Part shown: piece after piece, positions 663 through 4,680 of the stretch
Numbering within the stretch: position 1 is the stretch's first letter
Layout: each line of letters begins with the position of its first letter
Origin: a virus
DNA length: 53,757 nt
Virus record (IMG/VR): IMGVR_UViG_3300005738_000002
Span: 1-53,757 of that record
Reading direction: 5' to 3' (one strand)
Notes under the pieces: model-generated
The model's input: the letters and a program-made list of their open reading frames with translations, nothing else
Told to the model about the DNA's origin: nothing
Database searches by the model: none
Position numbers and translations under genes: made by a program

Positions 663-687
663 CAACCAACCAAATACATAGTATACT
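659..687 (+). promoter_or_regulatory. Strong sigma70-type promoter
   Basis: TTGACA (659-664) and TATACT (682-687) are separated by exactly 17 bases, close to the perfect bacterial consensus. The -35 box overlaps the TGA stop of the upstream gene (660-662). The ATG at 712 follows 25 bases after the -10 box. This should be read by the unmodified host sigma70-class RNA polymerase and would drive the overlapping genes 712-1568. Confidence 0.75.
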
Positions 688-2662: not shown

Positions 2663-2690
2663 TTGATTTCGTCCCCTGATCCTGTATTGT
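2663..2690 (+). promoter_or_regulatory. Sigma70-type promoter giving a leaderless mRNA
   Basis: TTGATT (2663-2668) and TATTGT (2685-2690) are separated by 16 bases. Only six bases lie between the -10 box and the ATG at 2697, so the expected transcription start coincides with the start codon. The segment from 2681 is repeated almost exactly at 2929. Confidence 0.65.
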
Positions 2691-2696
2691 AGACAC

Positions 2697-2885
2697 ATGA
2701 ACGAAACACCAAGCAACAACCCCTACACGAACACCCTCCTTGAGATGGGTTACGATCGCCAAGACATCGAAGTCGCTGGTGCTATGTTTCAAAAGCATAC
2801 GTTCCCTTGTGTGATCCATGGTCGTCAATTTGACACCGAAGAACAATACTATGCTGAGTTGCATGACTATTTCAATGGCATGTGA
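2697..2885 (+). CDS. Hypothetical protein, 62 aa
   Basis: The protein starts MNETPSNNPYTNTLLEMGYD and ends EEQYYAELHDYFNGM. It has one Cys (FPCVIHG) and a helical C-terminus. The N-terminal part around LLEMGYDRQDIEVAG could be a small helical bundle, but I cannot assign a family. The ATG stands six bases after the -10 box and there is no Shine-Dalgarno sequence, so the message should be leaderless. The start region (MNET) resembles that of the next gene (MNKT), in line with the repeated promoter/start segment. Confidence 0.6.
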   Translation: MNETPSNNPYTNTLLEMGYDRQDIEVAGAMFQKHTFPCVIHGRQFDTEEQYYAELHDYFNGM

Positions 2886-2909
2886 CAGTTGACCTAGTGC
2901 CACACAAAA

Positions 2910-2938
2910 TAGGCACAGCACTCAAAACCCTGTATTGT
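2910..2938 (+). promoter_or_regulatory. Sigma70-type promoter giving a leaderless mRNA
   Basis: TAGGCA (2910-2915) and TATTGT (2933-2938) are 17 bases apart, with six bases between the -10 box and ATG 2945. The -10 to start-codon segment is a near-exact copy of the one at 2681-2710. An upstream TTGACC (2889-2894) is wrongly spaced for this -10 box. Confidence 0.6.
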
Positions 2939-2944
2939 AGACAC

Positions 2945-3127
2945 ATGAACAAAACACTTGACGATCTCACCCCTAGCATCAGGGAGTTCTGCAACAGCAA
3001 CCCTGAGGCAGACTTTGAAATGATCATGGATTTTGTGGACTCTCAAATCGCTCCCTTTGAGGCAGACGATGATCTAGTAGACCACGCCATGGCGATCATG
3101 CTGGAGTGTGACGGACAGTCTGCTTAG
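2945..3127 (+). CDS. Acidic hypothetical protein, 60 aa
   Basis: ATG 2945 (MNKTLDDLTPSIREFCN) is chosen because it stands six bases past a clear -10 box. A longer frame from GTG 2882 would run through the promoter. The protein is strongly acidic (NPEADFEM, FEADDDLVD) and predicted helical, with two Cys. There is no membrane segment and I recognise no family. Small acidic early phage proteins sometimes mimic DNA or inhibit host enzymes, but nothing here shows that. Confidence 0.6.
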   Translation: MNKTLDDLTPSIREFCNSNPEADFEMIMDFVDSQIAPFEADDDLVDHAMAIMLECDGQSA

Positions 3128-3140
3128 TGTCCACTAGGGG

Positions 3141-3169
3141 TTGACTTCCGACCCCATTCATTCTATTGT
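3141..3169 (+). promoter_or_regulatory. Sigma70-type promoter
   Basis: TTGACT (3141-3146) and TATTGT (3164-3169) have an exact 17-base spacer. The ATG at 3198 is 29 bases past the -10 box, so this message has a leader of about 20 bases, which is A/C-rich with no Shine-Dalgarno sequence. Confidence 0.7.
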
Positions 3170-3197
3170 TCTCTTAAGTCAAACAACGACACCAAAC

Positions 3198-3524
3198 ATG
3201 CGTAAGATCGAAACCCAAATGAACGCTGCTATCAAAGGCAACGCCAATTGGACTAAGGCAAACACTATGGTTACAACTATTAATAGTGTGTCTCATGTAT
3301 TTCTTCATGGCAACAAGATTGCTGAGGTTGGTGATGATTTCGTTAAGGTATTTGATGGGGGTTGGCAGTCCAATACCACCAAATCACGTCTCAACGCTAT
3401 CATCAATGAATTCTGTAATGCTTTCACTGATGGTGTCTTTCAGAAGGATTTTCAGTGGTTCATTCGTGATAACAAAGTCACCCATGATTTCGTGAATGGT
3501 TTCACATTCAGCGAGTTTGCTTAA
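3198..3524 (+). CDS. Conserved phage hypothetical protein, 108 aa
   Basis: ATG 3198 gives MRKIETQMNAAIKGN. An earlier in-frame start at 3141 would translate the promoter. The layout is an N-terminal helix (TQMNAAI) and a strand block (SVSHVFLHGNKIAEVGDD). After these come GGWQSNTTKSRLNAIINEF and a Phe-rich end. The pattern LHGN ... GW ... TTKSRLNA is one I recall from a widespread phage family of unknown function (a DUF8033-like type, from memory). It has its own consensus promoter and is followed by a terminator, so it is a single-gene unit. Confidence 0.7.
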   Translation: MRKIETQMNAAIKGNANWTKANTMVTTINSVSHVFLHGNKIAEVGDDFVKVFDGGWQSNTTKSRLNAIINEFCNAFTDGVFQKDFQWFIRDNKVTHDFVNGFTFSEFA

Positions 3525-3535
3525 CTTCTAATCAA

Positions 3536-3567
3536 CTCCTAATTTTCTCCTAATTAGGAGATTCTTT
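3536..3567 (+). terminator. Probable terminator hairpin
   Basis: CTCCTAATT (3536-3544) pairs with AATTAGGAG (3552-3560) over a seven-base loop and is followed by ATTCTTT. The stem is perfect but AT-rich and the T-run is interrupted, so termination may be partial. Confidence 0.6.
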
Positions 3568-3579
3568 ATCTAATTCTTC

Positions 3580-3849
3580 ATGAACTACACTCTCAAGCAA
3601 CTTCAAGACAGAGTATCATCTATGATCAAAGAACAGGGAGAAGATGCAGAGTGTGCAGCATGGATTTATACCAAGAATGATTGTCATCTTAAGGACGAAG
3701 ATGGCAACACTGATTATGATAACAATGTAGAAGATCCAGCACTGCTTGCACGTATCTTTGATGATGTAGGCAACATTGATTACATCTATCAGGTGATTCA
3801 AGAGTGTGTAGATGAGGTCGTAGAGGAGGAAATCGCAGCGACTAAGTAA
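3580..3849 (+). CDS. Acidic hypothetical protein, 89 aa
   Basis: ATG 3580 begins MNYTLKQLQDRVSSMIKEQG. The N-terminal 20 residues look like an amphipathic helix. The rest is very acidic (DEDGNTDYDNNVED) and ends in a helix rich in Glu (ECVDEVVEEEI). The segment AAWIYTKNDC has Cys and Trp but no metal-site pattern. I do not recognise a family. A TCTAAT box ends five bases before the ATG, so this gene might also be leaderless, though less clearly than its neighbours. Confidence 0.65.
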   Translation: MNYTLKQLQDRVSSMIKEQGEDAECAAWIYTKNDCHLKDEDGNTDYDNNVEDPALLARIFDDVGNIDYIYQVIQECVDEVVEEEIAATK

Positions 3850-3918
3850 CACAAACTGGTCGGCCGCCTCCCAATTGCCAAAGTGTCACAGCGTTTCGCC
3901 ACTGCCTGCCACAGCCCC

Positions 3919-3924
3919 TATAAT
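3919..3924 (+). promoter_or_regulatory. Consensus -10 box TATAAT, leaderless start
   Basis: TATAAT at 3919-3924 is followed by six bases and the ATG at 3931, the same geometry as at 2685, 2933 and 4132. The -35 position is poor (TCGCCA at 17-base spacing). Confidence 0.6.
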
Positions 3925-3930
3925 AAGGAC

Positions 3931-4119
3931 ATGAACAAAACACAACGCCATCACGACGGACAATTCATCACCACGGGTGATCCATCCCCTTTGATGAGTC
4001 GCGTCATGGATTCGATCCTTAAGCAACAGCAGGCAGAGCATGAGTATCGCATGGCAGTCCGAGCAGGTCGCATCGAACAGGTCCAGTCTACAAACTGGAA
4101 CATCAGCGACAGACACTGA
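3931..4119 (+). CDS. Basic hypothetical protein, 62 aa
   Basis: ATG 3931 starts MNKTQRHHDGQFITTGDPSP. Fifteen bases around this start match exactly those around the start at 2945 (ACATGAACAAAACAC). The C-terminal half is a probable long helix (SRVMDSILKQQQAEHEYRMAVRAG, given in pieces: SRVMDSILKQQQ and AEHEYRMAVRAG) with alternating charge, possibly a coiled coil. GC content is about half, above that of the virion genes. No family is recognised. It is likely expressed early from its own host-type promoter. Confidence 0.55.
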   Translation: MNKTQRHHDGQFITTGDPSPLMSRVMDSILKQQQAEHEYRMAVRAGRIEQVQSTNWNISDRH

Positions 4120-4137
4120 CCCCTGACCCTGTAGACT
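4110..4137 (+). promoter_or_regulatory. Sigma70-like promoter giving a leaderless mRNA
   Basis: CAGACA (4110-4115) and TAGACT (4132-4137) are 16 bases apart. Six bases separate the -10 box from ATG 4144. The flanking CCCTGTAGACTA resembles the start of the other promoters at 2681, 2929 and 4397. Confidence 0.5.
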
Positions 4138-4143
4138 AATCAC

Positions 4144-4359
4144 ATGAGAAACGAAACCATGAACAACCCAAAATGTATCGTCGTCATCGGTGGCATTGAT
4201 TACGAGGGAGAGGCAATCAGATCCCTTCGCCTCTTTGATTGCCAGTCCACTGCTGAGGCATACAAAGCAGAACTAGAGCGTGAGTTCGATTACGTGCTCA
4301 TGGAGGTTCAGGAGATCTCACAGCACAGCGTCATGATGGGCGGTTCGATTCCTGCTTAA
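4144..4359 (+). CDS. Hypothetical protein, 71 aa
   Basis: The protein begins MRNETMNNPKCIVVIGGIDYEG. A second ATG five codons in (4159) is an alternative start, but the promoter geometry favours 4144. The pattern is a strand (KCIVVIGGIDYEGE), a helix (STAEAYKAELERE) and a strand (FDYVLMEVQEI), a small alpha-beta arrangement of no family I can name. VIGGIDYEG looks superficially like a nucleotide-binding loop but lacks the conserved spacing. It is probably transcribed alone as a leaderless mRNA. Confidence 0.6.
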   Translation: MRNETMNNPKCIVVIGGIDYEGEAIRSLRLFDCQSTAEAYKAELEREFDYVLMEVQEISQHSVMMGGSIPA

Positions 4360-4400: not shown

Positions 4401-4406
4401 TAGACT
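4401..4406 (+). promoter_or_regulatory. -10 box TAGACT, possibly extended
   Basis: TAGACT is preceded by CCTG, giving CCTGTAGACTATT, very similar to the promoter at 4132. The ATG at 4428 lies 22 bases past the box. TTGGGG (4371-4376) is too far away for a normal -35 box. Confidence 0.4.
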
Positions 4407-4674: not shown

Positions 4675-4680
4675 TACAAT
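4675..4680 (+). promoter_or_regulatory. -10 box TACAAT
   Basis: TACAAT in CCGACTACAATACAAGAG lies 28 bases before ATG 4708. The -35 position (CTAGGC) is weak. The leader is again rich in A and C, as for the other early genes. Confidence 0.4.

Follow-up and report, generated by a model that had tools for sequence, protein, structure and literature searches.

The stretch of DNA analysed here (the window; 53,757 nucleotides in all) is a 53.8-kb IMG/VR virus fragment from a T4-like cyanophage, a virus of marine cyanobacteria. Four small genes, designated A–D, belong to a cluster of small, functionally uncharacterised genes that share one strand and lie upstream of the baseplate genes gp25/gp6, and the nearest relatives of this early cluster are those of Vellamovirus S-RIM44 and Syn1, at ~86% identity. 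Position, size and host-type promoters suggest that A–D are early genes. A Pfam search returned only two sub-threshold matches for gene A and no matches for genes B, C and D. The genes, their promoter parts and the −10 boxes of four neighbouring leadered genes are collected in Table 1.

Table 1. Promoter elements and genes of the early cluster, in window coordinates; d is the number of bases between the −10 hexamer and the ATG.
Feature	Position	Strand	Remarks
−10 TATACT, leadered gene 712	682..687	+	d = 24
−35-like TTGATT, gene A promoter	2663..2668	+	16-nt spacer; retained as TTGATT/TTGACT where orthologues differ in their −10
−10 TATTGT, gene A	2685..2690	+	six bases to ATG 2697
Gene A, 62 aa, phrog_649	2697..2885	+	predicted leaderless; first further Met is M17
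−10 TATTGT, gene B	2933..2938	+	six bases to ATG 2945; site has the 21-mer of site 1
Gene B, 60 aa, phrog_7223	2945..3127	+	predicted leaderless
−10 TATTGT, leadered gene 3198	3164..3169	+	d = 28; hexamer as at sites 1 and 2
−35-like TCGCCA, gene C	3896..3901	+	17 nt to −10
−10 TATAAT, gene C	3919..3924	+	six bases to ATG 3931
Gene C, 62 aa, phrog_14769	3931..4119	+	predicted leaderless
−10 TAGACT, gene D	4132..4137	+	six bases to ATG 4144; contains in-frame TAG stop
Gene D, 71 aa, phrog_17343	4144..4359	+	predicted leaderless; profile begins at Met6
−10 TAGACT, leadered gene 4428	4401..4406	+	d = 21; hexamer as at site 4
−10 TACAAT, leadered gene 4708	4675..4680	+	d = 27

The earlier note had placed a −10 box six bases before the ATG of each of these four genes (2697, 2945, 3931 and 4144), and every coordinate proved exact. 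All four sites have an ATG start, with the −10 box positioned so that the predicted +1 is its first base. The relatives with this spacing start with ATG as well, the scans having covered ATG starts. The cluster is bimodal in this distance, with d = 6 at A–D and d = 21–28 at genes 712, 3198, 4428 and 4708. When a −35 element was sought at 16–18 nt, as for a sigma-70 promoter, the match was good at A (TTGATT, 16 nt), weak at C (TCGCCA, 17 nt) and poor at B and D. The 21-mer CTGTATTGTAGACACATGAAC is identical at sites 1 and 2, which means that the four cannot be treated as independent; genes A and B, and in part C, also share their first codons, ATGAACNAAACAC. A strong hairpin without a T-run (CCTGTGGAA...TTCCACAGG, 2611–2636) lies ~60 nt upstream of gene A. 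An 8-bp inverted repeat, AGTCTACA/TGTAGACT, occupies 4085–4092 and 4130–4137 (fold z −2.2), its 5' arm falling in the end of gene C, where S-RIM44 reads AGTCTACG, and its 3' arm overlapping the −10 box of gene D.

The absence of a Shine–Dalgarno (SD) sequence, claimed for all four genes, holds for A, B and D (duplex ~+0.5 kcal/mol) and fails for C, where AAGGA stands one base before the ATG with a duplex of −4.8 kcal/mol. This AAGGA would not be a usable SD, being too close to the ATG and upstream of the predicted 5' end. In-frame GTG codons occur upstream of genes B (2882) and C (3883). The TAGACT box of gene D and of some B orthologues includes a TAG stop that is in frame with the ATG and 12 bases ahead of it, which makes an upstream protein start impossible in these genes. 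Among the leadered neighbours, the leader of gene 4428, AGAAACAAACCAATC, is similar to codons 2–5 of gene D (coding start AGAAACGAAACC); an in-frame ATG gained at +1 would convert such a leader into codons 2–5. The A+C content of the first 22 nt of the mRNA is alike in both classes (0.63 and 0.59).

That four identical spacings are unlikely to have arisen by chance had first been argued from the window itself. In that form the argument is weak, because two of the sites are copies and a naive count of TANNNT-N6-ATG over the whole window reveals no excess (69 versus 63.6, s.d. 7.4). It stands when taken from comparative data, in which the d = 6 signal is confined to gene starts that have a strong −10 box. 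Orthologues of A–D were gathered from viral contigs of Kyanoviridae relatives, giving 145 loci. At dereplicated starts with strong −10 hexamers, 23 sites fell at d = 6 as against 1, 6, 4 and 2 at d = 4, 5, 7 and 8, the six hexamers behind these sharpest counts having been selected after the four sites were seen; a second, broad hump appeared at d of about 17–30 in the same starts. With hexamers preset as TATAAT bearing one change at positions 3–5, the excess sought by the earlier note in related genomes was present and modest across ten cyanophage genomes and one freshwater contig (37 sites at d = 6 versus 20, 20, 12 and 23 at d = 4, 5, 7 and 8), while a T4 control yielded a single site at d = 6. 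The excess is modest because few genes per phage are involved, most genes being leadered. A family-level TANNNT scan was discarded as too noisy.

Distances that keep the reading frame (multiples of three: d = 0, 3, 9 and 12) carry a coding background, and an apparent excess at d = 3 was traced largely to coding sequence running in frame into internal Met codons; later tests therefore took in only first ATGs preceded by an in-frame stop. Under this restriction 27 sites lay at d = 6, ten at d = 5 and one at d = 7, with a hump at d = 19–29; the 27 include a few gp25-like or isolated cases for which no claim is made. The base at −1 was C or T in 25 of the 27 against a baseline of 45% (p = 2.5e-7), which is the pattern that initiation on the A of the ATG would produce. 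The following ATG was in frame by 10:1, and the A/C content of positions +4 to +24 was 0.68 versus 0.59 (p = 0.001). Some gp25-like genes (L048 10917, L057 9151, L107 9555 and L218 17208) likewise showed a −10-like box at d = 6; these boxes were not counted as support, being placed behind late-type AAATAA sequences.

Within families A–D the six-base spacing is kept in orthologues despite unrelated upstream DNA. Family C occurs with the variants TATAATaaggac, TATACTaacagc, TATACTagggac and TACAATagccac, family B with TATTGTagacac or TAGACTaaccac, and family A with TTGATT-N16-TATTGT, TTGATT-N17-AATGATactatc and TTGACT-N17-CATACTataggt. Candidates with this spacing recur in S-RIM44, ACG-2014e, S-CAM4, S-MbCM7, Sf-CH11, S-RSM4 and P-SSM2, the last at a gene near 58.6 kb (TATAATaagagtATG). 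The d = 6 spacing is thus both enriched at gene starts and conserved in evolution. In some relatives (L021 at 4987, L106 and L276) a hairpin with a T-run stands directly before the −10 box of a gene with this spacing, so that the putative leaderless promoter seems to follow on straight from the preceding gene's terminator.

A second promoter-like repeat, CTCTAAAGTGTCCCTATAGT (or TCCTAGTAGT), is present in multiple copies in other cyanophages, its upstream part differing from phage to phage. Its carriers comprise SynMITS9220M01 (L275, 195–7660), L040, L057, L104, L105, L110 and others; SynMITS9220M01 holds nine forward-strand copies at 38.9–50.0 kb and one weaker reverse-strand match. A scan requiring AGT at the 3' end collected 225 dereplicated sites in 94 loci. 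At 73 sites the repeat directly abuts an ATG, the frame staying open for at least 51 codons at 68 of them and the second ATG falling 31:2:2 across the three frames. At 87 sites the repeat is followed by GTA or ATA and a leader, and here the frame of the first ATG is random (19:26:32). The frame bias and open frames of the first class, set against the randomness of the leadered class, indicate that the ATG abutting TATAGT is a real start codon.

The homologues of these two classes differ, the comparison being made at loci without high-scoring repeat copies. Among 112 dereplicated starts of homologues of the ATG-abutting genes, 24 show TANNNT at d = 6 and none at d = 5 or d = 7; among 123 from homologues of the leadered genes only one has it at d = 6, and the distances there form a hump at d = 15–28. 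A few of the loci compared still hold the repeat owing to the score threshold, which if anything lowers 24/112. The difference (Fisher p = 9e-8) is to be read with regard to the many of the 24 that belong to families C and D, dereplication having been by sequence, so that not all are separate families. A gene encoding MKNTH(L/I), for example, abuts the repeat in SynMITS9220M01 and reads TATCTTaagaacATG in phage Bellamy. A start codon at the promoter edge looks like a property of the gene, retained through a change of promoter.

As a promoter, the TATAGT repeat would not fit the standard geometry, since the ATG directly abuts it and a normal −10 box would start transcription seven bases further on. 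Its resemblance to CACTATAG led to its consideration as a T7-type promoter, a reading that was rejected: a search of the repeat-bearing phages tested found no single-subunit RNA polymerase, and its positive control, P-SSP7, worked. Nor was an extra phage sigma factor found in phages of either class, each phage tested giving one region-2 match, presumably a gp55-like late sigma factor. The repeat could be matched to no described cyanophage promoter. Tentatively, the 5'-end start codon may be a conserved, gene-specific trait that was kept as the promoter went from a sigma-70 type (−10, N6, ATG) to CTCTAAAGTGTCCCTATAGT, with TATAGT abutting the ATG, which would point to an unrecognised recognition factor.

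Taken together, the one-base peak at d = 6, the pyrimidine at −1, the in-frame second ATG, the persistence of the spacing after promoter replacement and its per-gene conservation across two promoter types support the proposal that these messages are leaderless. Leaderless transcription is the best explanation for genes A–D and, judged from sequence comparison, a highly probable one. The four sites would be host-type (sigma-70-like) promoters with +1 on the A of the start codon, and the mRNAs of A–D would open with 5'-AUG and continue in A/C-rich codons; early genes nearby would use similar −10 boxes and A/C-rich leaders of ~15–22 nt. Initiation would then proceed by ribosomes, probably 70S, binding the 5'-terminal AUG, with the A/C-rich start helping, a route that the literature makes plausible. 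CA repeats after the AUG raise both leaderless and leadered translation (PMC9031893), and the A/C-rich first codons of A–D resemble these translation-enhancing repeats. On the host side, 6–8% of primary transcription start sites (TSSs) in Prochlorococcus MED4 lie within 10 nt of the start (PMC5607370), and leaders in MED4 and MIT9313 measure 27–29 nt according to values quoted in PMC6091082.

The alternative that survives best is that the 5'-AUG is real and secondary: the main protein would start at a second in-frame Met 5–8 codons on, and the first AUG would be a ribosome-catching 5'-uAUG on a normally leadered mRNA. Gene D (MRNETM) and many C homologues, among them those reading MENKAM, do have a second in-frame Met near codon 6, at the usual leadered distance, and for D the phrog_17343 profile and the S-RIM44 annotation both begin at that Met. 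Leadered D homologues exist (L079 and L121), a Met occurs in codons 4–9 of 10 of 45 d = 6 genes versus 44 of 454 leadered genes, and 5'-uAUGs of E. coli bind 70S ribosomes (PMC4965119). However, such a Met is missing from genes A and B and from C as it stands in the window, and the first ATG is nearly always in frame with the second (10:1 for the d = 6 sites and 31:4 for those abutting the repeat), which suggests selection for its use as a start. As an account of the set this alternative is unlikely, and gene D, with the MENKAM homologues of C, may nevertheless use mainly the second Met. The starts of C and D are annotated differently in the S-RIM44 and Syn1 records (L001 9348, 9561 and 9576; L002 9023 and 9284).

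Far less probable is a duplicated or recombining −10-N6-ATG cassette whose spacing would reflect common descent and not selection on the transcript start. The 21-mer shared by sites 1 and 2 fits such a cassette, as do almost identical units that precede unrelated genes in further phages (L047 and L135), but the spacing survives among several −10 and upstream sequences that are unrelated to one another, and under the TATAGT repeat these genes again have an ATG at the 5' edge. It is equally improbable that the TANNNT boxes are inoperative and A–D are read from longer transcripts started upstream, as the one-strand arrangement, the gaps of ~60–70 nt and the poor −35 elements at B and D might suggest, given, on the other side, the sharp one-base spacing peak, the pyrimidine/A initiator signature and the T-run hairpins directly before −10 boxes in L021, L106 and L276.

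If the leaderless reading is correct, T4-like marine cyanophages run part of their early programme via messages that need no SD pairing, and the six-base rule would settle the start codons of C and D, unifying their annotation in S-RIM44 and Syn1. The same genes, leaderless or leadered depending on the phage, would offer a comparative system for the role of leaderless translation in infection. Our literature search found no paper on leaderless cyanophage genes. A study of Syn9 has reportedly addressed cyanophage transcription start sites. The predicted leaderless mRNAs of A–D are new examples of their kind, notable for being conserved gene by gene in a major marine phage group.

Among known systems, the PeSL cassettes of T4-like phages join a stem-loop terminator to an early promoter. 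The cyanophage units are similar in being small intergenic promoters that recur ahead of shuffled early genes, in some cases with hairpins, but no terminator-like hairpin was found directly before any of the four −10 boxes of the window. A terminator-like hairpin at 3137–3155, GGGGTTGACTTCCGACCCC, includes the −35 element TTGACT of the leadered gene 3198 and is like a combined terminator–promoter of the PeSL kind. For leaderless TSSs of the hosts, we know of no conserved gene set. Such TSSs in Prochlorococcus MED4 and Synechococcus elongatus UTEX 2973, where 19 are considered leaderless (PMC6091082), provide a host-side precedent but concern host genes. The 5'-uAUGs of E. coli (Beck et al. 2016) resemble the predicted A–D messages in that the mRNA begins with an AUG and another start follows; there the downstream genes are SD-leadered, whereas here no usable SD is present and A and B lack a nearby second Met. 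The cI mRNA of phage lambda, the leaderless standard (PMC4965119, PMC9031893), is likewise a phage mRNA beginning at AUG, transcribed from PRM. It represents a single repressor gene of a temperate phage, in contrast to several early genes with an A/C-rich start in a T4-like phage. In actinobacteria, including M. tuberculosis, leaderless mRNAs have TANNNT ~6–7 nt before an RTG start and no SD. As predicted for the cyanophage genes A–D, the −10 box puts +1 on the start codon in the absence of an SD; in actinobacteria, however, this arrangement is genome-wide and serves host genes, whereas in the T4-like cyanophage it concerns a handful of small early genes.
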